DNA of 64,000 nucleotides, taken from positions 62,001 through 126,000 of the forward strand of contig NW_002476481.1 in NCBI RefSeq assembly GCF_000189635.1, in the 5' to 3' direction. The stretch comes from Tetrahymena thermophila SB210. Taxonomy: Eukaryota; Ciliophora; Oligohymenophorea; Hymenostomatida; Tetrahymenidae. The notes under the pieces are model-generated. The model did no database searches, was not told where the DNA came from, and saw only the letters and a program-made list of their open reading frames with translations. The translations under genes and the position numbers were made by a program. Below are positions 2,106 through 63,850 of this stretch, one piece after another. Position 1 is the stretch's first letter. Each line of letters starts with the position of its first letter.

Positions 2106-3399
2106 ATTAACTATTAAAGCATTATTTCAAAGAAATTTAAATTTATTTTCTTGTTTTCAAATAATAATTTTGAAAATATAAATTTGTTTGTTTATATATG
2201 TGGGAATTATTAATCAATAAAAATAATATAATTACTTGTTCATTAATAAAAACAAGTAAGAACTAATAAAAATTAGTATTTTATATTTTACTTCGAAATT
2301 AAATAAAAAACAATAATCATTATAATTTGCTAATTGCAGTTTTATTTTTAGTACTTATATTTATTAATTGATTTTTATAAGCGTATTAGAGCTATGTTAA
2401 TTATTTATTAATCAAAAATTTTTAAAAAATCAGCTAGGTTTTACTTTTAAGTTATTTAGGAATTACTTAGATTATTAAAATTTTGTTTATGAAAAAATTT
2501 GTTCAAATATTGCTAAATTTGTTGATTGACAACCCTGCTAATTATATTAAATCAATATTTCCAAATATAAAAATAATAAATTATTTTGTTAATTAAAAAA
2601 CAAAAATTATTTTACTTTACTAAAAGATTATTTATTTTTAATAGTTTTTTATTATTTAATTTAAAAAAGAAATAAAAAAACAAATCAATATCATTAAACT
2701 TATCTATTACTTGTTTATCCTTATCTAAAATAATTTATTTATGTATAGAGGATTTTTAATTATATCAGTGTTATTTTCTATCCTGAGTACTAAAAAAAAT
2801 GAATTTTCATAATTTATTAAAATATAAATTTAATTTATTTATTTTTTAAATTCGAAAATAAAAGCATTGCTATTAATGAGATTATTTTGAGTTAATTGTT
2901 TTATTTTATTTAGATTTTATAAACACTTATTTATATATCTTTAGCAAATTAAAGAAGTAAAATTAATTAATTAAAATATTTATAAAAGAAAAATAAATAT
3001 TTCTGATCAAAATTAAATATTGAAAAGAATTTCCTTAAAAAAATACTTTGAGGGAAAAATCAAGTTTAATTGAAAATTTTTATTAACTTTCTTTCACATT
3101 CTTACAACTAGCCGCATCTATTAATATGTTTAAATATTTCTATATATTTTAAAGATATTATCAGATAACAAAAGTAATGAACGTCTTAAACCTTCAAAAA
3201 AGATTTAATTATTTAATTTCATGGTTTAATAAATATTCAAAAAATATGAGTAGGTAAATACAGATAATTTGCATGTTTTAATTTGTAGAAATCTTTAATA
3301 ATTATTATTGTTTATTGAATTAATAAATTGATTTACTCAAAATTATTATTTAAATTAATAAGTATTTATCTAAATTGACATATTCTATAATCTTTGAGG
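2106..3399. other. Intergenic, AT-rich
   Basis: About 1.3 kb of very AT-rich DNA between the two tandem TPR genes. It should hold the 3' end of the first transcript and the promoter of the second. I see no convincing reading frame, RNA gene or ordered repeat. Confidence 0.5.
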
Positions 3400-6300
3400 A
3401 TGAGTGATAATGATTAAGAAGAAGATGAACTAGTTGAAACATTAGAATTTATATCAAAACAATTAGAAGAGCATTATCAACTCAAAACAATCAATAAATA
3501 TGGGGGATAAGGTGGATTTGGATTGGTTTTATTTGTTGAAGACATTAATGATCAGTCGTAAAAGTATGCAATAAAAGCTCAATCAATAATTAGTAAAACA
3601 ACAGGGAATATAAATTAAACATTGTTAAAATAATGCAAAGAGGAAGCGCGTATTATGAGAGAGTGTAAACATGAAAATGTAGTTGAGATTTACTGTGATT
3701 TCGTTCTTGGACTTTATCACTTTATCTAGATGAATCTTTGCTATTGTTCGCTCAGTGATTGGATCATGATCAATGGCTAAAGGAGTATTTCTGATTAAAT
3801 TTTTTGCAAATTTGTTGAATAAATGATTTAAGGATTAGAGTATTTACATAACAAAGACTATGTGCTTAGAGATGTATCAGTAAGAAATATACTGCTAACT
3901 GTTAATGGAGATATTAAATTTTGTGATTTTGGTTTAGCTAGAAAGTATGATAATTCTCTCAGGAGTAAGGTTCTCTACACTTCTCATTTAAATGGAGTGA
4001 TCTATTATTTTCCACCTGAAATCCATTAAGCAATTTAAGAAAATAAACCTTAAATAAAATAAACCAAAGAAGGAGATATATGGGCATTGGGTGTTTGCTT
4101 ATCTCTTCTGGGAGGTGTTCCAATTAGCCACTTTTCAAATTCATTTCATAAAGATTTTAAAATAGTTGACGCTCCTAATTTAAGTGAAAAAGCAAATTAA
4201 CTGATAAAAGAAATTCTTATAAAAGATCTTAAAAGCAGGCCAACTTTTAATTAAATCAGAGAGCATATTCATAAAATATTTTATTTTTTAGACTTGGGAG
4301 CAGTAAAAACTTTAAATGAAAAAGTAAAAAGTTCTGAAACAACAATTAGCCAAACTAACTCAAAGTTAGAAACTCGAGATAATTCTATAGTAAGTCTATC
4401 GTAATCAGAGACAGCTGTCGTTTTTATAAACAACAAGATAATTGAAAAAAAAATATTTGTACTTCCTTCTAACTTAGATGAACAAATTAAAAAAGCAGAA
4501 GTTAATGTTGAATTTAACTTTTTAGAGGTTTAAAACTTTTATCAAAAGTACAAATCAATCCTAGCTGAGGAACCTAACAATATAGAAATTCTACTTTTCC
4601 TTGGTCATGTTGAAATTAAACTGAATTGTAATTACGAAATAGGTGAAAGCTACTTGGAAAAAGTAATTTCTTTATAGAAAAATTCTATAGAAGCTTACTT
4701 AGGCATTTGCGAAAGCATCTTAATATAGCGAAAAGCATGCTTGTACAATTAAATTAGAGAATACATTAAAGTTTGTTTTGATTTTAATCAATCTTATTGG
4801 AAAATATTTTACATTTAATCTTGGCTTCTTTATGAGTGTGAAAATTATGTATTAAGTGAAGAATGCCTTCAATTAGCTTTAAATTAATACCCTAAATCTT
4901 CCTTATTGAATTCTCTACACTCACTTTTATTAATACAAATATCTGGGTAGAGTATTCAATCTTCAACTGAAAAACTTGAAAATGCAATTTCTTAAAACTA
5001 TCTTAATGACCCATTGGTGTTAAGCAGAGCAGGTTTCTTTTATTAATATTACTTAAAAGAATTTAATAAAGCGAGTACATGCTATAAAAGGGCTCTTGAA
5101 ATATGCCAAAATGATTTAATGTCTCTGTTTAACATAATAATTCTTCTAAATCAATAAAAAACAGCTCCTGATAAATTAGAGGCTTATCTAAATTAAATAA
5201 AAAGCTATTATAAGGAGAATAGTATAGTTAGTCAATTGTATGGATGCATTGAAAAGAGTTTCTCAGAAAAGATAAAATATTTTAATAAATCGATTGAGCA
5301 GGACAAATGCTAAGTTAGCTCATACATTTATCTGTCTCAAATAAAGAAATCATAAAACAAAATAGAAGAACTTGAAGAGATTTATAAGAAAATTTTAGAG
5401 ATAAATCCAAATCAAATCAACTCATACATAGAATTGGGTTAAATATATTTTCAAAAAAATGAAAAATTAAAAGCACAATCATACTTTAAATAAGCTTAAG
5501 ATCAAAAAAATATATCTTAATACGATGATTTATATCTAAAGGGAATAAATTGTGAATTAAACCAGCAAGAAGAACTTGCAATGAAATATTATAATTAATC
5601 AATAGAGTATAATCCATATTAAGAAAGATCATATTTGAGAATTATAAAAATTATCTAAGAAAATAAAAATATAATAATAAGTGAAGCTATCAACATCAAC
5701 ATAAATGCAATTTAAAAAAACCCTTTAAGTGAAGATTTGAAGCTCTCTTTGATTTCCCTTTATATTGAACAGAAACGCTACTTTGAAGCTAAATAGATCA
5801 TGATAGATTTGATAAAATTGTAGCCTTACAAGCCATAAATTTATGAGCAATTAGGTATTATTGAATATCGAGAATTATTAAACAAAGAACAAGCGATTGA
5901 ATATTTTAATAAAGAATTAGAACTTAGTATATCAGATACATCTGTAGGGTATTTAGCACTCATATACTTTGAAAAAAATGAATAATAGAAAGCAAAAGAA
6001 TATTTAGAGAGAGCAATAGAAATCAACATGAATAATTTAGATGCCAAATACGTTTAAGCTAATTTGATGAAACAAGACAATTTAATAGACGAAGCAATTT
6101 AAATTTTAAATGAAATATTAGAAAGAGATCAATATTACTACAAAGCCTATGCTCTTTTAGGTAATATTTACCAGTTTAATAAATAAAATCCAAAAGAAGC
6201 CTTGAATTACTACTTGAAATGCATGGAAATTAATAAATAAATAAATGAGATGCATTATAATGTTTCACTTATTTACAAGAATGATATTAACGATATTGAT

Positions 6301-7395
6301 AAAGCATAATAATTTTTGTGCCAATATACAAGCATGAATATATATAATTATAATGCAATATGCGAACTCGTTAAAATATATTTGCTGAAAAACGATCTTT
6401 ATAATGCTGAATCTTTGCTCATTTTATATACTATGCATAATACATAAAATGAGGACGCATTACGTAAGCTTAGCGATATTTAGATATAATTAAATAAGGA
6501 TACAAATGCAATTAACACTCTTGAAATTCTCAGAAGTCTAAATCCTACTAGAAAAGATGTACTTTTAGATTTAAGTAAATTGTATGAAAGTAGCTAACCT
6601 TAAATGTCTGCTCAAATATATTACTTATGCCTATAATAAGACCCTTTAAACGTCCAAATTTTACAAAAAATAAACTCTTTTACATAGGGGTCATTTTTAT
6701 TAAAATTATAATAAGAAGCTGAATAAGAAAAAGATGAAAATAAACTTTTGATTCTATTGAAACAATAATAATTAATAAATAATAAAAGCTCATATAATTT
6801 ATTGTAAAAGTTAGCTGATATTCAATTTAAATTTCACATGTATGAAGACTCTGAGAAAACAATCTAGAGTATGATTTAATAATTTAAAAAAAAAGGATAT
6901 CCATACCTGCTTCTAGGGAAAATAGAACTAAAAGTAAATTAGAACTATACTAAAGCCATCGAGTACTTTCAAAAAGTGTAAGATCTAAATGAAGAGTCTT
7001 CTGAGCTCTATTTAAGAAGAGGATATTCCCATATGTAACTTTATTAAATGGAAGACGCTACTAAGTACTTGAAAAAAGCTACTAAAATAGTCCCAGTATA
7101 GCCTTTATCTTTTCTTTATTTGGCTTAAATAGAAACTTATGTTAAGGGTAATTATAAAAAGGCAATGAAATATCTATAAGAGTGTTTAAATAAAAATTTT
7201 AAAGTAGCCAAAGTTTATTATGAATTTGGTTATATTTTTGAATAACTAAATTATTTGTATCAAGCAAAAGAATCTTATGAAAAAGTCTTGGAGTTAGATC
7301 CTAATTTTGAGAAAGAAAAATATTGTAAAAATTTTATAGAGCAAAATCCTTAACCAGAAAATAAAGAATTTAAAGAATAGTGTTCAATATTTTGA
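3400..7395 (+). CDS. Protein kinase fused to a long TPR array, CaaX-like C-terminus
   Basis: One uninterrupted frame of 1,332 codons (ATG 3400, TGA 7393-7395) encodes 1,331 residues. Residues about 28-300 form a kinase domain: Gly-rich loop YGGQGGFGLVLF (34-45), ATP-binding Lys59 in KYAIKA, catalytic Asp158 in LRDVSVRN with metal-binding Asn163, and DFG at Asp176 followed by GLAR. The His of the usual HRD motif is Leu, but the catalytic residues remain, so activity is plausible. The remaining thousand residues are TPR-like repeats. The C-terminus is Cys-Ser-Ile-Phe, a candidate prenylation box shared with the upstream paralogue. The start is the first Met of the open frame and follows AT-rich leader. 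Substrates and pathway cannot be told from sequence. Confidence 0.88.
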
Positions 7396-26887: not shown

Positions 26888-29800
26888 ATGAAAATTTAAA
26901 ATTTTATATTACTAATATGTAATTTCACTCTATGCTATGCCGCGTTACCTATCAATGTTGGTTAATTTTGGTTTTAAATTACTGTAAGTTTAAAATTATA
27001 TTAGGTTTTTAAAGATAATCATGTTAATTTGAATAACTTAAAGGAAGACCAAAGCATTATTTACCTTGACTCTGATTAAAACCAATGGGTATATAGTAGA
27101 TTAAATTAAAATGGTGATATTATCCTTTCAATTAATCTCAAATATTTTATGGGAAAATCTGATTTAAATGACGAATATATGATTGAAGTAAAGGATTGAT
27201 TATATATTCATTACTTCTGCATTTCAAAATATAAACTTACTTTATTAATTAATACTTATATTCCTAAAATATAAAAAATAGTCAGATTAATCAAATCATC
27301 GCTATCTCTATATATTTAGCTATTAATAAGGAAAATATCAATAAATAGATTACGATCTATTATTATAAACTCAAAATAATTAAAAATTCGATTGCAAAAA
27401 TAATATTTAATCATACGGAAATGCAAGAACAAGATACTTAAAAAGAGTATTCATTTTAGTTAATTGTTTTATAAAATATATATTTATCATTTATTATTTA
27501 TATTTAGGATTCAAATTATGTGAAAAATGATAGTACTTATATAAGCTAAATAAATAAAAATTTCTCTCCTTCTGTTTAACTAATTCAAAAAATTAAATCT
27601 TTTTAGAAATCTCCATATTACTTCTAATATGAAGATTATTCTAGTAATATAGCTTATATTTATTGGAAAGGCAACAAGTATCAACTAAGTGGTATTAAAA
27701 GATCTCTGGTTATTGATGTAATTAATATTAATATAAGTTTAATCAAAATTAATTTATTTTTAGTATGAAAATGATATAGTTTTGAATGAAGCCAAAATAT
27801 TAGGAAAATTTAGTTTTCTAAACAATGCTATTGAATTTAAATATTAAATATAATTATCATCTGATGTAAGCCTAATAGCCTTCACTGAAATATATACAGT
27901 TAATCAGGTAATTTCTAATAGCTTTTCTCATTAAATTAAAATATATATTATTAATAAATTTTTTTTAATTTCATCATTTATTTTCATATTGTTTATAATA
28001 AAAATTTTTATTGATAAAATGAAAGTAGTTAATATTATTTAAATTTATATTTATTTTAAATAAATAAAAATAGGTTAAATTGATTGGAATTTATGATTAA
28101 TCTCTAAAATTTTATGATCTAAACACTTTTCAATAAGTTAGCTTAAGTAGTAATAGCGATTAAATAGGATAAATTACTTATTTTAACTAATTATTTTCAT
28201 ATAAAAATTTAATTATTGTCAAAACTGATGTGTATAAAATGAGTTATGACCAAGTAAGTAACCAAGTTACCTTAAAAAAATTAAAGTCTCTTGATAAAGA
28301 ATTAACTCTGATATACCAAACATAAGCTAATGCAATATGGAGAACTTCATTTACATAAGTAATTTTTTATGATAAAAACTTGATTAAAAAAAATATATTA
28401 TTTAAGGGATAAACATAAATTTTGTAAGTTAATGGTTAAAATCAAATAACTTCTATGGAAAGAATCATATGTTAGAATGGATAATTTTTGACATCAAAGT
28501 AATTTTTAAAAATTTAATAAATTATAATTTACACTTTTATTAATACATATAGTTCAGATTGTACATAATGCAAAATAGATGAAATATTACAGAAGTAAAT
28601 TTACAATATCTAAAGAAACTATTAATAAAAATAATTTATTATAATAACTTAAAGTGATAAATGTGTCAGCTGTCCTCAAGGTTCAAAGAAATTGTAAAAT
28701 ATTTTATTTTAGGAATATATTAATAAATTTGATTATTATAAACTTATGATTAGAGATATTAATGATAATGTTTGTACTTCTTCTGTATCTTCAAATTGTG
28801 ATTAACCCAGTGCCTAAAAAAGTTGTGATTGCCCAAATTACTATTACTAAAATTCTTCGTAACAAAAATTTGTTTATTTTCTTAAAAATAACATAAAAAA
28901 TTGAAAACAATAATTTTAATAGTCAAAAATGCATCCAATGTTAGACTGGTTAATAATTTAATAAGTAAATAATTTTTTATTTGTTGTTAAAAATACTTTT
29001 AAGTTTATTTTTAATTAATTAATTTATTAAGCATTAAAGACTCTTGTGATCAAGCTTGCGATGATGGAAGTTTTTTTAAGTAAAAACTATAATATTTTAA
29101 TTTATTTATTTTGTTGAAAGTTAAATTTTTTGCAATTAATCATATAGAAATTATCTATTTTCTAAATTATTTCATTTAAAAATAAATAATTACATTTTTG
29201 GATAGATTAATAAATTGATTTTATTAATTAATTTGTATATTAACAGTGGCTCAGCTTGCTAAAAATGTACAATTAACTGTATTAAGTGTTAGAGTGATAA
29301 AACTTGTGATTAATGTGATTAAACAAATGGATATTTTTTAGATGCTAATAAGTTAAAATATTAAATTTTATCTTAAATTTATCATATTTATTATTTATTT
29401 TGTTAATTAGATAAAGTTGCTTAAAGTGTGATCAGAATCTTTATTAAATTTTGAATAATCAGTAAATAGTTTTATTTTTAATTCAAAAATATTCAATATT
29501 CATTATTTTAATAGGAAAAACGGATGTGATTGTTAGAAAGGTTATTTTTTAGACAATACTTCTTAATGCTTAAAATGTTAAGAAGGATGTAATGATTGCG
29601 ATAACACTAAATGTAATTAATGTATCTAAGGATATTATAAGGATGCTTCGACTAATTAGTGTTAAAAATGTATGGTTAATTGTGATTAATGCACTCAAAA
29701 GGATTAATGTGACCAATATAAAACTTGCCAATCTGGTTAATATCTCGATAAATAAACCAATCAATGCTAAAAATGCATGGATAATTGTGATTAATGCACT

Positions 29801-31690
29801 CAAAAGGATTAATGCGATTAATGGAAAACTTGCCCATCTGGTTAATATCGTGATAAATAAACGAATCAATGCTAAAAATGTATGGATAATTGTGATTAAT
29901 GCACTCAAAAGGATTAATGTAACCAATGGAAAACTTGTCCATCTGGTTAATATCGTGATAAATAAACAAATCAATGCTAAAAATGTATGGATAATTGTGA
30001 TTTATGCACTTAAAAGGATTAATGTAACCAATGGAAAACTTGCCAATCTGGTTAATATCGAGATAAAGAAACGAATCAATGTTAATCATGCCATCCTAAA
30101 TGCAAAAGTTGCAACGGCCCAAAAGAAAATAACTGTAGAGAATGCTTTAATTAATTTTTTGTTAACGAGGAAGGAAAATGCTCAGAATGTGAAATTGGAT
30201 AGTATAAAGAAAAAAGTAAATGCATGAATTGTCACTGGAGCTGCAAAGAATGTAATGGTCCAGATGAAAATAATTGTCTTTCTTGCTAAAATTCGTTGGA
30301 ACTTTCTAGTGAAAATACATGTTTAAGTGAAAAATAAAAGGAAAATGAAGAAGATGAGAAAAAAATCTGTGACTATTCATGGTTTGAATTCGAAGATAAA
30401 GAAAAATTATGTCAAAAAAGTTTACAATATGCCAAATTAAACAACCAATTTATTGATAAACTTTCACTGGTCAATTTAATTCTTGCATTTATCGTTTCTA
30501 TTTTTGTGCCTCTTTTTAGTCCTTTTGCATGGTTTTATATTTAATAGTAATAGTTAATTGGTAATTTTGCTTTACTAAAATCGATGAATATAATGTGGAT
30601 AAATCAGTTACAGCTAAAGGTTTCTTTCGGACATAATGTTATCAATAACTTTTCTAACTTTTTATAAAAAAATGAAGATAAAATATTTTCATTTTCCCTC
30701 TTTGATGAATTTGCATTTGAGACTTAAGACTTATATAAATATTTTATTGAAAATACTTTAGTTCATGCATCTATTTTCATAGTAATAATTGTTATATTTG
30801 GTCTACTTATGATACTAAAGTCACATAGCGCTTTCGCTGAAAAATTACTTGGATATATACAATGGAATTTGTTTATCAGGTTTTTTATGATTTCATCTAA
30901 TTTCATAATCTTATCAGCACTTATTGAATTTAAATAAGGAAGTTTCAAAAATATAACAAGCTTAGTAATCTTTATAATTATTGGAATATTTTACTTAATT
31001 TTCTAGATTAAATCTCTCAGATTTTTATTTTCTTACCATTACTATTTGAGGTTTTTTGATAAAAAAACATTAATATGCCTTAAGAACGGACTACTTGACA
31101 CTCAAAGATGGCCAAGACTATTTTGGTTCATTTTTGAAATCAGAAAAATTATTTCTTGTGTTTTACTTTATCTATTGCAAGACACTATTTATGCACCATG
31201 GATTGTTTTAGGATTGTCTATAATTCAGATAGTTTACTTTGTAATTTACAAGCCATTAATAGACAAAAAAGCAAATATCTTAATTGTAATAATTGAGCTT
31301 ATGTTTGCTTTTGTAACTACTTTTATATCATTACAAAACTATTTCAGTATTCAATCAGGTTTTGCTAGCTAAAGCAGAAATATTTTCATAGCTAAAGGTA
31401 AATTTTTTATTAGTTAAATTCATAGTAAAAACATTTTTTTATAAAAAGTAATAAGTGGTGGACTTTTAGCTATTCAAGCTTTTTGTTTAGTTGCTTTAAT
31501 CTATATATGTGCTTATGCTTTCATTAAATTAATTATTTAAAATAAAAAAGATAGATTATAAAATAGCTTTGAAAACAGCCATCTTATAATTTAACAAAAC
31601 TTAAAATTTGAAAGCTTTGATCAAATAATCACAGCTTTAGCTGGTTCAAGCTAAAATATATCTTGGCAACAAAAAACTAAAAAGAAATGA
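26888..31690 (+). CDS. Gene A1: furin-like Cys-rich repeat, multi-pass membrane protein (complete copy)
   Basis: Multi-exon gene from ATG 26888 to TGA 31688-31690. The first exons (26888-27187, 27282-27446, 27508-27717, 27764-27907, 28074-28358, 28407-28498, 28553-28594, then 28655 onward) join in phase. A signal peptide (ILLICNFTLCYAALP) is followed by about 320 residues of beta-rich ectodomain, then a Cys-rich region of CxxC-type furin-like repeats from about 28553 to 30300. This contains four 105-bp (35-residue) tandem units at 29661-30080 with the core DNCDQCTQKDQC. From about 30460 come at least six hydrophobic segments (for example FIVSIFVPLFSPFAWF) and a short cytoplasmic Gln-rich tail after a last intron (31398-31451). 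Ciliates carry large families of such proteins; ligand or channel function is unknown. This is the only copy of the cluster with the membrane part. Confidence 0.8.
29661..30080 (+). repeat. 105-bp tandem repeat inside A1 (4 units)
   Basis: Four units with a period of exactly 105 bp, each containing CTAAAAATG(C/T)ATGGATAATT or a close variant at 29661, 29766, 29871 and 29976. Each encodes one 35-residue furin-like unit with six cysteines. The repeat makes open frames in the other five frames as well; these are by-products. Confidence 0.9.
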
Positions 31691-38698: not shown

Positions 38699-39344
38699 TC
38701 AGTTCTTGTTCTTAGCTTTTTCTTCAGCTTAGCTAGCTTTTTCTTATAAAGCTTTCAGATATTCAGAAATCTCCAGAATTTAATTATAAATTTACTCATC
38801 ATAATTCTAAATTAAAAAAGTTTAATTAGATTCAATAAAATTTAATTTAGCAATTATATGAGTCATTTCCATATTATCTTAAGCTTCTTTCAATTGTTTT
38901 TAAGCTTGTTTCAATTCTTTCTCAGCTTTATCATAAGCTTATTTATTTTATTCGTGGAGTTTAGTAGCTTTATCATATTATAATGCATAATCATTAGCTT
39001 CATTTTTCAAATTAATATCTTCAGGTTTAGCATTAGCAGCTTCTAAGCTTAAATTTTTATATTTTTCAGCATAAAATTTTTCTTTAAAAGATATAAGGGT
39101 AGCTTTATCAGCTTCTTCGTATTGTTTCTAAGCTAGTTTTGCAGCCTTTTTAGCTTCTTCAAGAGTCTTCACAGCGTGATTATAAGCTTTCTTACTTTCT
39201 TCAGCAGTACCTTTAGCTACTTCAACAGCTTCTTTATATTTATCAAGTTGGTCTTTAAAATTGTCTAATTCGCTTTCATTTTATCCATAAATATTTGCCA
39301 AGAAGAGGGCAGCAATTAAAAGAATAAATAACTTTTTATTCATT
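38699..39344 (-). pseudogene. Gene C1: Lys/Glu/Ala-rich secreted protein, frameshifted
   Basis: Starts MNKKLFILLIAAL at 39344 like C4. An extra T in the signal-peptide region (around 39299-39303, CTTCTTTGG) shifts the frame to a TGA after 22 codons. The remaining frame is open for about 200 codons and encodes a Lys/Glu/Ala/Gln heptad-like helix (KGTAEESKKAYN, DKAEKELKQAQKQLKEAQ). It ends at TGA 38701-38699 after AEEKAKNKN, while tail remnants follow in other frames. Either a young pseudogene or one assembly indel plus a true tail loss; the tail being shifted too favours decay. Paralogues are C2, C3 and C4. Confidence 0.7.
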
Positions 39345-39845
39345 TTTATTTTATTAGTTTATTATTTTTATTTATGTGAATTAATTAATTATAACATTTT
39401 AGAGATTAAAAACTGGCTTTTTCAAGAACAGTTTATATCAAGTTTACACAGCTTAGTAAAACAGCGTTAATTAGTGAGCTAATTTGCTTAAAACTATTTA
39501 TAATTTAAATAGCTAGCTATTTTTATGGTAATAGTAAAATTTTTCTAGTAATATTTTGAGTCACAATATTAAAAGTTAATTTTATTGTATTACTTAATAT
39601 GAATTATAATAATTTTTTAGCTCTAAAATAATTTTCAATTAATGATACGAAAATATTAAATAGTTAGTTAGTATTTATTTTTTTTTATCAGCAAAAAGGT
39701 AGTATTTGCAAAATATTAATTTTAAAATGAATAAGAATGGTTAGCTATCTAATTAAGTAATCCATGATCAATAAATAACAATCTATTTCCTTTAAAAATT
39801 TCAAATAAATATAAATTGTTATTTATTTTTAAATAAAAAAATTTA

Positions 39846-41252: not shown

Positions 41253-41918
41253 TCAGTCTTTTTTATTATCAGCCTTCTCAGCTTTATCTTCTGCCTAGCT
41301 AATTTTTTTTTAAAAAGCTTTCAGATTATCAATAATCTAGTCATATTAAGCAAATAAATTTTAATCATTATTATCACGTTCATGTATTAGAAGAAGTTGC
41401 TACTTTATAGCCTCATCGAATCTTATAACCTCCTGAGCTATTTTAAAATTCTTTTTAGCTTCATTCAATTATTCTTAAGCATCTTCAAGCTATTATTAAG
41501 CTTCGTTAAAAGCATTTGAATATATATCATAATTATCCTGAGCTTAATCAAAATTTTCTAATGCAGCTTCAGCTTCATCTATAAATTCATCATCCCAAGG
41601 ACTTTCCTCATAAGCTTTTATAATTTTTTTAGCTTCTATACTTTATAATGAAGCTTTATTTAAAGCATCTTAAGCTTAAAGCAAATCCTTTTTAGCATTT
41701 TCAGCTTTTTTCTAAGCATTTTCAGCAATCGTTTCAGATTTTTTAAGAGTTCTCCTAGCACTCAAATCTTCATAAGAACTATCATTTAAAGATGCACTAG
41801 CTTTTGCCAAAATCTTTTAATATTCATTAAAAATATCTTAGAAATCGGCTAAATTGCTTTAACTTTGTGCATAAATAGTAGTAAAGAGAATCAAAAGAAT
41901 AAATTACTTTATATTCAT
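41253..41918 (-). CDS. Gene C2: Lys/Glu/Ala-rich secreted protein
   Basis: One exon of 222 codons (ATG 41918, TGA 41255-41253). A signal peptide (FILLILFTTIYAQ) precedes an all-helical, Cys-free body rich in Ala, Glu, Lys and Gln (AENAQKKAENAKKDLLQAQ). It ends at KADNKKD. The DNA just downstream encodes, in the +1 and then +2 frame, a stretch matching the family tail (ENKDVTVPS, then NPTSGKIIQIALVV), so the ancestral GPI-type tail has been lost by frameshift. The product would be secreted but not anchored, or the copy is decaying. Same orientation as C1, C3 and C4. Confidence 0.75.
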
Positions 41919-44175: not shown

Positions 44176-45753
44176 TCAAAGAACGAATAAAATAGCAGTA
44201 ATAGCTAAGGCTGTTTAGATAACCCTTCCGTAAGAAGGATTAGCATTATCTCTAACAATTTCAGTTTTATTTTCTATTTCAGCATTCTTTTAATCTTCGA
44301 GATTTTTAGTTTCTTCTTCACCTTTCATAGCTTCTTATTCAGACTTTTTAGCTTTTTCATCCTTTGAAACTTCTATTTCAACCTTCATTTAATCTTCGAG
44401 CTATTTAGTTTCATCTTCCTTTTTTTAATCTTCAAAATTTTTGGTTTTCGAAGCTTCTATTTCAGTATCCTTTTACTCTTCGAGATTTTTAGTTTCTTCT
44501 TTATCTTTCATAGCTTCTTCATCATCCTTCTTTTAATCTTCAAAATTTTTAGTTTCTTTTTCATTTTTCATAGCTTCTTATTCAGTATTCTTAACTTCTT
44601 CATCCTTCGAAAATTATATTTCAACATCATTTTAATTATCAATTTTTTTAGTTTCATCACCATCTCCCATAGCTTCTTCTTTTTCATTTTCTTCTTGTTC
44701 TTCTTCTTCTTCTTCTTGTTCTTGTTCTTCTTGTTCTTGTTCTTCTTGTTCTTCTTCATCTTTTTCATCTCTCATAGCTTTTTCTTCATAGTTGTTAGCT
44801 TCACCTTGCTGAAATTGTAAAAATTCACCTTCAAACAATTAAAACTCTTCTTTAAATTTAAGTAATTATTCAAATTCTTCATTAAATTGTTTATTTTTTT
44901 CTTAAAGTTCTTCATATTTTTCTTTTTGTGACTCTTCATCATTCTTTGCTGTTTTCTCACCATATAGATTTTCTTCTTCACCCATACTAGTTTCTTTTTC
45001 AGCATTCTATTTATTGTCAATCTTCTTAGCTTTTTCTTTATCATTATTAGCTTCATTTACAACCTTCACACCCTTATTAGCTTCTTCTTCAGCATTCTTG
45101 GCAGCTTCTTTTTCTGCATTCTTCACTTTTTCTTCAGGCTACTTAAATTTTTCTTATAAAGCCTTCAGCTATTCAATAACATCCTTATATTAATTAAAAG
45201 CCTTTTTATAGCGATTATAAATCAGCAAAGTTTAATCAGCAACAGTCTAATCTAATCTAGCAAACAGCTAAATCCTTTTAAAATTTTTTAAAGCTTCTTC
45301 AGATTATTTTTAAGTTTCTTATTATAATTACTGAGCTTGTCTTTACAAATTAAAAGACTTATCATATTTTTTGAAAGCATTATACAATAATTCACTAATC
45401 TTATCAGCTTTGTTTTACAAATTATTGTCAAATGGTTAATTATCGACGGTCTATTAAGCTTTATTATTTTATTCTAAAGCTTATTCAAAATATTTTACAG
45501 CTTATTCATAAGTAATCTTAGAATTAGCAACTTCTATTTAGGCTTTAATATTAGCAGCTTAAGCTTCTTAAAGAATCTTCTAAGCATATTTAAAAGCTAC
45601 CTAACTAGTTTCAGCAGTTGCTTAAGCTTTTTCAGCAATCTTTGTATAATCTTAAATTAGATCTTGGAAATAATTAAATTTGCTTTAAGTTTAAGCATAA
45701 ATAGTTGCCATGAGGAGGGCAACAATTAAAAGAGTAGATTTTTTTTAAATCAT
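44176..45753 (-). CDS. Gene C3: long Lys/Glu-rich secreted protein with GPI-type tail
   Basis: One exon of 526 codons (ATG 45753, TGA 44178-44176). Signal peptide KSTLLIVALLMATIYAQ, then about 190 residues of helical Ala/Gln/Lys-rich body homologous to C1 and C2, then a long acidic and basic low-complexity half. This includes a Glu/Gln tract (44690-44760) and imperfect repeats of the type EETKNLEDQK separated by EAMK. The C-terminus is a small-residue cleavage region and hydrophobic tail (NPSYGRVIQTALAITAILFV), as in GPI-anchored proteins. Likely a cell-surface rod or coat protein; function unknown. The longest member of the C family. Confidence 0.85.
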
Positions 45754-47758: not shown

Positions 47759-48021
47759 TTTTGTAATTAAAATTAAATTAATTATTACTTTTTTCAATTA
47801 TTTTTAGATTAATAAATGATTATATTAATTAATTTATATATTAATAGTGGCTAAACTTGCTAAAAATGTACAACAAACTGTATTAAGTGTTCAAGTGATA
47901 AAAATTATGATTAATGTGAAGATACAAATGGGTATTATTTAGATACTATTAAGTTAAAATATTAAATTTTATCATAAATTTATCTTAATATTTATTTTAT
48001 TAATTAGATAAAATTGCTTTA

Positions 48022-48121
48022 NNNNNNNNNNNNNNNNNNNNNNNNNNNNNNNNNNNNNNNNNNNNNNNNNNNNNNNNNNNNNNNNNNNNNNNNNNNNNNN
48101 NNNNNNNNNNNNNNNNNNNNN
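48022..48121. other. Assembly gap (100 N)
   Basis: Exactly 100 N, a conventional placeholder of unknown true size. It separates the A3 fragment from the upstream region of A4, so the number of A copies here is not certain. Confidence 0.99.
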
Positions 48122-49330
48122 TGTTGAAAAAATTATAAAAGAAAGTTTCTATACTAAAACTAAATAAAAAATAATTGAGTTAATTAAATAATTTAATTAT
48201 TGCTAATTCATAAACCAAATTATTGTAAAATGGCATAAGAAAAATTTATTTCTTTCTTAGTAGAAACTATATGAGTTAGCTAAGAAAGAAATTAATTATA
48301 TGTATTTAAATTGATTTTTAATACTAAAATAAATTGCATTTCAGCTAGTCACTTATAATTTATTAAAATATATTAGAATCAACTACTTTAAATTCTTTAA
48401 TATTTGTGTTCAATTTAAAATGAAATTTATGTTTTAGTTTTATCTATTTTTTTGTTTTTTCTTATTTTTGCAAAAAATATTTAGCTTAACTAAATTTAAC
48501 TTTTTTACAATTTGGCTAATTAAATAAATTTTAAATTTATCTCATATTATTAAAGACAAAAAAAAAATTGAAAACTTTATATAAAACTCAACCTCTAATA
48601 AATTTAAATGCTTTATTTTTTTTTAATTAATTAATTATTTAAATTAATTAAGGAATTTGAATTATAAAAAATATTTGAAATAAAGGTTATTAATTTTATA
48701 AAGTATTTTTCCATTTATTTAAATTAATACCCCTTTTACTTACTTTTTTAGAAGCTTAACTTAATATCTAAAGCTAAAAATTCAAAATTTCAGTGTTACT
48801 GAAAATGGCTATTAAAGAAAATTAAAGCTCTTATATTAATCAAATAAGTTAAAAAAAACTCTCAATATCAAACAAAAATATACTTTTTCTAATAAACAAA
48901 TAAGTATAGAATTCGATTTTCAAAATAATTTGCCAAGAGACTTAAGTAAATTTAAAAACATTTGGAAAAAGAAACAAATAATAAATAATGAAAAATTAAA
49001 AAAAATCAAAGTGAAAATAAAGTTGTGAGCTTAACTTTTTTCTTTATTTTATTAATTAAAACAAACTAAAATATCAAAGAATTTCAATTATTATTGGTAT
49101 TTGTTACAAAACTTTATTATATATTGTAAGATATCAGATTATTTAGTAGCATAAAATTATTAATTCAAACTATTTATCTTTTAGATTCACTAATTGGAAC
49201 ATTTATTTTTGAAAGAAGAATAATAAAAAATAAATAATAAGGAAGCAAGTAAATAAAAATAAATAAATAGCTTTATCAAGATATATAAATAGATACTATC
49301 AAATAACTAACTAATATTAGAAAGTAAATA
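48122..49330. other. Intergenic; left part of duplicated unit (copy 4)
   Basis: Diverged copy of 25600-26887 and 32560-33772, ending with the conserved promoter block at 49240-49330. No gene is seen. Confidence 0.65.
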
Positions 49331-56132: not shown

Positions 56133-56834
56133 TCAGAAAGCTAATAAGATAGCAGTAAAAGCCAAAGCAAATTATATAATTTTACCAGAAGAAGGAGCAT
56201 CATTAGTGTTATCCTTATTTTCAGCCTTTGCTTCTTTATTTTCTTCCTTCTTTTCTCCTTCAGCCTTCTTCTCATCTTCAGCCTTCTTTTCATCTTCAGC
56301 CTTCTTCTTATCATCTTCAGCCTTCTTCTTATCATCTTCAGCCTTCTTTTCATCTTCAGCCTTCTTCTTATCATCTTCAGCCTTCTTTTCATCTTCAGCC
56401 TTCTTCTTATCATCTTCAGCCTTCTTTTCATCTTCAGCCTTCTTCTTATCATCTTCAGCCTTCTTCTTATCATCTTCAGCCTTCTTTTCATCTTCAGCCT
56501 TCTTCTTATCATCTTCAGCCTTCTTCTTATCATCTTCAGCCTTCTTTTCATCTTCAGCCTTCTTCTTATCATCTTCAGCCTTCTTCTTATCATCTTCAGC
56601 CTTCTTCTTATCATCGTCAGCCTTCTTTTCTTCATCGGTCTTTTCACCAGTTGCACCAGTTTCAGGAGCTTTAGGTTCTTTTGCTTCATCACCTTTAGGT
56701 TCTTTTGCTTCATCACCTTTAGGTTCTTTAACTTCAACAGCAGTTTTATCGTCAGTAGGTTTGGCGTCTCCTTCAGCAAAAGCAGTGGCCAAAAGGAGGG
56801 CAGCAATAAAGAGTACAAATAATTTCTTATTCAT
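56133..56834 (-). CDS. Gene C4: Lys/Glu/Asp/Ala repeat protein with signal peptide and GPI-type tail
   Basis: One exon of 234 codons (ATG 56834, TGA 56135-56133). Signal peptide MNKKLFVLFIAALLLATAFA, a linker with three EPKGDEA-type repeats, then about 110 residues built from 6- and 7-residue units KKAEDE and KKKAEDD, then KADNK-like spacer (AENKDNTNDAPSSGK) and a hydrophobic tail (IIQFALAFTAILLAF). TAA within the tail is read as Gln. The tail has the small-residue site and hydrophobic end of a GPI signal. The charged repeat would be an extended or coiled rod on the cell surface. The high purity of the repeat and codon bias suggest recent unit expansion and strong expression. The repeat leaves long meaningless frames on the other strand. 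Confidence 0.93.
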
Positions 56835-61856: not shown

Positions 61857-62183
61857 TCAAATTAAAATAAACAGCGTAAAAGATAAAATAAAAACATATT
61901 AGAGCACACTTTATCCTCCTATACACTATTAAAAAATATCAAGGAAATTTTAAGTCAAATCAAATTCGCATAGTTTATTTGACCTAAAACAATTAATATA
62001 TTCATCTTCAGTTAATATTGATGAACATTTTCCTGCTATGCATGCTATTTTTCTAAGAACTTGGAGGAGACATACTTAGTTAGCATTGCATTACTCTTAT
62101 AGACAGTCAGCATCAATAAAATTTGAATTCACTTAGCTTAATCCAACAATTAATAGAAATATTATTGCTAAATGCAAATTCAT
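61857..62183 (-). CDS. Small secreted eight-cysteine protein with GPI-type tail (member 1)
   Basis: One exon of 109 codons (ATG 62183, TGA 61859-61857), visible only when TAA and TAG are Gln. A signal peptide (MNLHLAIIFLLIVGLSQ) is followed by a mature part with exactly eight cysteines spaced C-x4-C-x5-C-x9-C-x4-C-x11-C-x6-C-x14-C. The end is a small-residue stretch and hydrophobic tail (GGQSVLQYVFILSFTLFILI), fitting GPI anchoring. The gene at 63461-63850 has the same spacing apart from x13 in one loop, although the residues differ. No family that I can name has this pattern. Even cysteine number implies four disulphides. Confidence 0.82.
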
Positions 62184-63460
62184 AAATATTTATATTTTAT
62201 CTTTGCTTATTCAAACTCAAATAATTAATTATTAATTAATTAATAAGAAAGTGTCAACTTTTAACAAATACATACATATTTCTAAATAAATTGTATAACA
62301 AAATCATTCAATAATAAACAAACATCATAAATAATATAAGATTAAAAAATAAAAAATATATCAAACATTCATTTTATAATGAAATTTTATATCTTTTTCT
62401 TCTTTTAGTAAAAAGAAGCATTTAATTTTTTTCAAACCATTTCAAAAGAAGAAATATTAAATTTAAAATTGAGTAATTCTTTGGAAATTGTCTATTGTAC
62501 ACTATTTACAATATTTGATTTTCTATTTTGATGTTTTGATGTATATTAAGATTTTTATGATTGAATAAATTAGGAATTAATTATCTTTGAAATTTGTTTG
62601 GCATATTTTAAATTCCAATAATAATATAATTATTTTTAAAATTAATTTATTATTATTAATATAAAGATAAATCATCTCAAATTAATTCATTTAATTTTAA
62701 TCAATTTTTGTGTTAATCATTAAGTGGATTAAAACAAAAATTATTAGACTTTCTAAATATCATTTAATATTTTGAGTTATTTGTAATTTTTACTGCCAAT
62801 AAATTAAATTGTGGCACCTTAATTAATTACTGAAGAAATTGTTGTTATTATTTTTTTAGATTTCCTAAAAATTACATATCTTTTAAAGGTAGAATAATAA
62901 GAATGGTTAAAAGCATCTTTATTATTAAAATAATGACATTTTCTTAATAAGGTTTTACTTTTATTTACTCAAGTGCATACATAAAAATAAATAATATAAT
63001 ATATAATTATCATATATTTATTGTATTTTTCTTTTTTATATTATTTATTTCAAACAAAATCAAAAAATTTAATACATACTAAATATTTTTATCAAATGAA
63101 TAAATGAATGTTTTACTGTTTTAAAAAATAGGAATATTTATTTTAATCAGTTAATTTAAGAATTGGCTGGTTATTAATTCCGTTTTATCTCTAAAAAATT
63201 TTAAAAGTTAAGAAGAAAAATTATAATAGCAAAGAGGTATAGAAAATTTGATTGCTAAAACCTAAAATATATATTGAATAATTATTTAAAAAACCTATTG
63301 GAAGATTGTAAAATAGTAAAAACTTAAATTGTAAATGAAAAATCGAACATGAATAAAATATGAAATTATCACGCGAAATAATATTTATAATTAGGAATTA
63401 AATTCATATTATATTCTTATAAACTTTTTTTATGTACTTTGTTTTTATTTTTTTGTAAAA
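62184..63460. other. Intergenic between the two eight-cysteine genes
   Basis: About 1.3 kb of very AT-rich DNA, including the promoter of member 1 and the 3' region of member 2. No gene is seen. Confidence 0.5.
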
Positions 63461-63850
63461 TCATAATGTTATCATTAATAGTCCAAAGACAAAATAAATG
63501 ATATTTGATCCAGTAGTACTTCCTTATGCGGCTGATTGCAATTAAGAGAGAGAATTATTTGCTAAAAGTTATTCTGCACAAGTCTCTAATGCATTAACAG
63601 TGCTTTGTGGTTAGTTTTGAGTGCATTATGTATTTTATTTTATACATGCAACCGCTTAGTTTATATCTGAAGAACTTGAAGTACTGCATTTATCTTCGTA
63701 GCAACCTACCATACTGATTATCCCTTCAAAACAATTAACATCTCCATTACAGTTATTCGTTATACAAGTTGACAATTGACTTTATATACTTTCTTATAAA
63801 GTTAAGTTGCAAACAAAAAGTAAGATTAGTACTTAAAATATTTATCTCAT
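63461..63850 (-). CDS. Small secreted eight-cysteine protein with GPI-type tail (member 2)
   Basis: One exon of 130 codons (ATG 63850, TGA 63463-63461), hidden under the standard code. Signal peptide (MRQIFQVLILLFVCNLTLQ), then eight mature cysteines spaced C-x4-C-x5-C-x9-C-x4-C-x13-C-x6-C-x14-C, a Ser/Gln/Ala-rich spacer (NNSLSQLQSAAQ) and a GPI-type tail (GSTTGSNIIYFVFGLLMITL). Shares orientation, plan and spacing with 61857-62183 but little residue identity, so the pair is an old tandem duplication under structural constraint. Likely a cell-surface protein; ligand and role unknown. Confidence 0.85.

Follow-up and report, generated by a model that had tools for sequence, protein, structure and literature searches.

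A three-gene tandem family of small eight-cysteine proteins, predicted to be anchored at the cell surface, in Tetrahymena thermophila

The closest described systems to the locus reported here are the immobilization antigens of ciliates. Ser proteins are GPI-linked and consist of blocks of 55-100 amino acids that hold 6 (SerL), 8 (SerH) or 10 (SerJ) cysteines each, and their genes tend towards tandem arrays in one orientation, as described in the published survey of these proteins (PMC4136848). Disulphides are also proposed there, which could permit the sequences to diverge while the fold stays (PMC4136848). The i-antigens of Ichthyophthirius are described in similar terms, with hydrophobic ends that serve secretion and GPI addition, cysteines that recur periodically in 5-6 tandem repeats of 60-100 amino acids, and genes usually arranged in tandem arrays (PMC3341644). 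The proteins described below are alike in being cysteine-rich, in having hydrophobic ends that include a predicted GPI-type tail, and in being encoded in tandem, and their eight cysteines in cores of 57-63 amino acids compare with the eight per block of SerH and with the length of Ser blocks. Unlike both groups of antigens, each of them has one block in place of repeated blocks, within a total of 108-129 amino acids, a comparison made for the Ser antigens by description and by a published cysteine rule.

The window that we analysed is a stretch of 64,000 nucleotides of Tetrahymena thermophila SB210 (contig NW_002476481.1, positions 62,001 to 126,000), in which the first-pass annotation had reported two small minus-strand genes read in code 6, each with eight cysteines, a signal peptide and a hydrophobic GPI-type tail. 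Both genes, here called A and B, are present as claimed and their frames score as coding (Table 1). The only ATG of gene A sits nine codons into its open frame, and in gene B, where an earlier in-frame ATG exists, we place the start immediately before the hydrophobic N-terminus. Glutamine is encoded in gene A by 8 TAA, 1 TAG and 1 CAA codons and in gene B by 11 TAA and 4 CAA codons, so that the use of both TAA and TAG for this residue, claimed for the two genes alike, holds for gene A, while gene B has TAA and no TAG.

Table 1. Features of genes A and B, in window positions.
Feature	Position	Strand	Basis
Gene A, 108-aa eight-cysteine protein, predicted secreted	61857-62183	minus	single open frame in code 6, TGA stop included
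Gene A, putative signal peptide, residues 1-20	62124-62183	minus	hydropathy; predicted cleavage site
Gene A, eight-cysteine core C27-C87, loops 4,5,9,4,11,6,14	61923-62105	minus	cysteine spacing
Gene A, C-terminal hydrophobic tail, residues 88-108, putative GPI signal	61860-61922	minus	hydropathy
Gene B, 129-aa eight-cysteine protein, start MRQIF, predicted secreted	63461-63850	minus	open frame in code 6, TGA stop included
Gene B, putative signal peptide, residues 1-19, holding a ninth cysteine (Cys14)	63794-63850	minus	hydropathy; predicted cleavage site
Gene B, eight-cysteine core C29-C91, loops 4,5,9,4,13,6,14	63578-63766	minus	cysteine spacing
Gene B, C-terminal small/polar spacer and hydrophobic tail, residues 110-129, putative GPI signal	63464-63523	minus	hydropathy, filter

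We detected a third member, gene C, by searching the 101-Mb, 445-contig genome with the gene B protein (match at contig positions 127413-127691, minus strand, E=9.5e-10). Gene C occupies contig positions 127344-127691 on the same strand as A and B, lies 1.3 kb past the window end and encodes 115 amino acids with loops of 4,5,9,4,7,6,14, and the three genes stand in tandem with gaps of ~1.3 and ~1.5 kb. Protein searches of the 101 Mb with A, B, C and two composite sequences as queries returned only these genes: the gene A query matched A only, the B and C queries matched B and C and not A, and the composite queries recovered 3/3 known genes with nothing further up to E=10. This search nominates few candidates before scoring and distant members could escape it, so that the family numbers at least three. 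A loosened eight-cysteine pattern likewise found only A, B and C in the unspliced frames of 318 kb of this one contig (324 kb covered, 6 kb of it twice).

The spacer between B and C (contig 126615-127263) contains three pairs of direct repeats of 51-82 nt, 73-83% identical and spaced 349-393 nt apart, which are traces of local duplication in the spacer. Further direct repeats of 146 nt (93%), 89 nt (83%) and 36 nt (89%), spaced 247-264 nt apart, lie upstream of C at contig positions 128296-128816.

With TGA as the sole stop in code 6, long spurious open frames are frequent in the window, and frames such as these could in principle have arisen by chance. Codon log-odds nevertheless peak in the coding frame assigned to each gene, at +12 bits for A, +27 for B and +25 for C, against +8, +11 and +11 bits for the best alternative frame of the same stretch, and the small margin of gene A (4 bits) is a point in favour of a chance origin. 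Across 654 overlapping intergenic frame-windows the same score averaged -29 with a maximum of +4.4, a control in which each TGA costs 5 bits and so widens the gap to the genes. The GC content of the genes is 26% and 29%, compared with ~16% in their flanks. These contrasts speak against chance frames, as do the existence of a third homologue and the features common to A, B and C, namely the cysteine frame, a hydrophobic N-terminus and an uncharged hydrophobic tail that reaches the stop (by hydropathy), and we consider a chance origin highly improbable.

The first-pass annotation had described the cysteine loops of A and B as matching in all seven lengths and had argued that such a match was very unlikely to be coincidental. 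Six of the seven are identical in A, B and C (4,5,9,4,_,6,14) and the fifth varies (11, 13 and 7, respectively); under random placement, the probability of the given arrangement of the six inner cysteines in the 61-residue core of A is 2.2e-8. The argument from chance is beside the point, because the genes are tandem duplicates, and homology takes its place. A and B align with E=1e-6 as a single comparison, and non-cysteine residues outscore shuffled sequences in all pairs (A-B P=0.0016, A-C P=0.0036, B-C 0/20,000) over 42 positions from which the cysteines and the variable fifth loop were left out. Identity counts at those positions are unremarkable for A-B (4, P=0.32) and A-C (5, P=0.12) and reach 12/42 for B-C (P=0.0003); overall, gene A is 24% and gene C 31% identical to B. 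Both TGT and TGC occur at 5/8 core cysteine positions across the three genes, as fits a residue that is conserved independently of the DNA that encodes it. Judged from the sequences, the shared cysteine spacing is common descent in a tandem array and not convergence, and the annotation's central proposal, a genuine family whose cysteine frame is conserved, is supported, with three genes now in place of two.

We found no match above the curated Pfam cut-off for A, B or C. The best was DUF3185 (E 0.0082, 16.5 bits against a cut-off of 25.3), which covered only residues 102-126 of B; two zinc-finger families (E 0.058 and 0.57, one member each) were rejected, as the proteins look secreted and have no CxxC pairs. 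NCBIfam yielded 0 families for the 3 members, PDB sequences gave no convincing match, and no relative was encoded in 39 pattern stretches from viral contigs or 40 from prokaryote genomes. The cysteine spacing was unmentioned in the titles and abstract openings of the literature matches listed. Within the reach of Pfam, NCBIfam and PDB sequences, the earlier description of the family as unnamed holds.

Fungal CFEM domains, plant 8CM domains and Euplotes pheromones are small eight-cysteine secreted domains, some of them GPI-linked or helical, and their spacings contain CC, CxC or CxxC. The A, B and C proteins are likewise small, with several predicted disulphides, but lack CC, CxC and CxxC, and the few weak Pfam matches listed at E up to 10 include none of the three families. 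Structure prediction gave a low-confidence, all-helical model of the gene B protein (residues 21-100 mostly helical, with pLDDT of 62-81 by ten-residue blocks) that had no significant match among solved folds, an absence that carries no weight at this confidence, and a model of mature gene A in which no residue reached a pLDDT of 70. The order of DSSP helices is compatible between the two, although both models are weak and, resting on the same two sequences, are not independent evidence; the comparison leaves a conserved disulphide fold common to A and B plausible.

Euplotes has helical, disulphide-rich pheromones, and A, B and C could similarly be tethered or shed cell-cell signals for mating or recognition, with the small disulphide-rich domain acting as the ligand and the GPI anchor serving only for its presentation or shedding. 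Their small size, four possible disulphides and, from the models, a likely helical core would suit a ligand, as would the low number of genes and the strong divergence of neighbours. The family profile, in contrast, matched only three PDB chains, all weakly (best E 0.64), which were a Notch fragment and pollen extensins, and nothing ties A, B or C to mating, and we regard a signalling role as doubtful.

By hydropathy, A, B and C are predicted to be GPI-anchored and located at the cell surface. A signal-plus-tail filter with an I+L+F+Y share limit of 0.36, applied to the same contig stretches as the pattern scan, passed B and C, together with two charged repeat proteins of the window that have no cysteines; all four are on the minus strand. 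Gene A failed it; by our own count its share is ~0.38, over that limit, and the filter is thus imperfect. The spacer before the tail of A is short, Gln95 lies inside the tail, and Gly89/Gly90, picked by eye, is its candidate attachment site. Hydrophobic tails could also span a membrane, and hydropathy cannot separate the two, so the proteins could instead belong to an internal compartment (mucocyst, phagosome or ER) and be held there by a plain membrane anchor. The tails stop without trailing basic residues, as GPI signals do, and by eye their hydrophobic runs of ~13-16 residues are short for a span, both of which argue against an internal location and make it unlikely in our assessment. In T. 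thermophila, a fluorescent protein given the signal peptide and GPI sequences from the i-antigen of a different ciliate is reported at the cell membrane and more weakly in cilia, and the authors note that further factors may contribute (PMC11282128); a surface route of this kind therefore exists in the organism.

Several other genes of surface type lie nearby. Four minus-strand frames (38699-39397, 41253-41918, 44176-45753 and 56133-56834) encode secreted-looking, highly charged coiled-coil or KE-repeat proteins, and those at 44176-45753 and 56133-56834, which are the two that passed the filter, end in the GPI-like tails RVIQTALAITAILFVL and KIIQFALAFTAILLAF. Together with A, B and C, the four suggest that genes of surface type cluster locally. 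The frames at 29432-31690 (+) and L004:8412-9998 (+) encode long, cysteine-rich repeat proteins of growth-factor-receptor or furin-like type (by eye), the former with membrane spans, and represent another surface-type family nearby. Elsewhere in the window, adjoining plus-strand frames at 3-2105 and 3379-7395 encode TPR-like proteins that are related to each other, and the latter protein also carries a protein kinase-like domain at its N-terminus (both by eye), and ~48020-48125 is translated as X in the frames, which marks masked or unknown sequence.

The published cysteine rule for Ser antigens, C-x(>=6)-C-x(>=1)-C-x(>=1)-C-x(>=1)-C-x(>=1)-C within 120 amino acids (PMC4136848), matches A, B and C (3/3); in B and C the match began at the signal-peptide Cys14, and the rule also matches from the third core cysteine. 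That A, B and C follow a published, loose rule reduces their novelty, and they may already be on record among those Ser candidates that Ponsuwanna et al. 2014 left unclassified, a possibility compatible with the other readings and one to which we give somewhat less than even weight. In its favour, the survey's GPI score narrowed the proteins that passed the rule to 216 candidates, 55% of which fall in no subtype (PMC4136848). Also in its favour, the eL22 protein of this genome matches PDB chain 4v8p_AM, from the T. thermophila ribosome, with full identity over 106 residues, although one ribosomal protein cannot tell near species apart. Against it, the rule admits 4,925/24,725 proteins and the survey also required a 'highly probable' FragAnchor score (PMC4136848), for which the tail of gene A is borderline, and a separate study puts the i-antigen genes of T. 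thermophila at 34 (PMC3341644). Were they on record, the genes would already be known, but not the family that they form. Because the rule is loose and each protein carries one eight-cysteine block, not two or more repeated ones, we have not filed A, B and C as Ser antigens.

We suggest, with confidence that is evenly balanced, that A, B and C form a three-gene tandem family of small GPI-anchored surface proteins with four disulphides, each comparable to a Ser antigen block that stands alone. If expressed, the proteins would enter the ER through the N-terminal signal peptide, where eight cysteines would form four disulphides and so hold together a core that is compact and probably helical, and the hydrophobic tail would be swapped for a GPI anchor, leading to display on the plasma and ciliary membranes. 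The cysteine frame would be kept constant while most other residues drift, and a constant frame with a drifting surface matches what is proposed for the Ser proteins; a role in the coat or in recognition may follow, as for a single immobilization antigen block. More speculatively, and with little probability in our estimation, the family may represent a ciliate-specific four-helix, four-disulphide domain, undescribed as a family, that acts as a single copy at the cell surface. Such a domain might be the smallest unit out of which the repeated i-antigen coats arose, or what was left when such coats were pared down.

What is added here is the extension of the family to three genes that match no curated family, with a function that we propose by inference. 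What ciliate immobilization antigens precisely do is described as unknown (PMC3341644). The known antigens are long and repetitive, and A, B and C offer one block in three genes; in other respects they are an ordinary family of surface type that diverges fast and belongs to a well-studied kind. At this size, the whole family could be expressed, its structures solved and all its genes deleted, which would allow tests of what job such a domain does and of whether the repeated coats share its fold.
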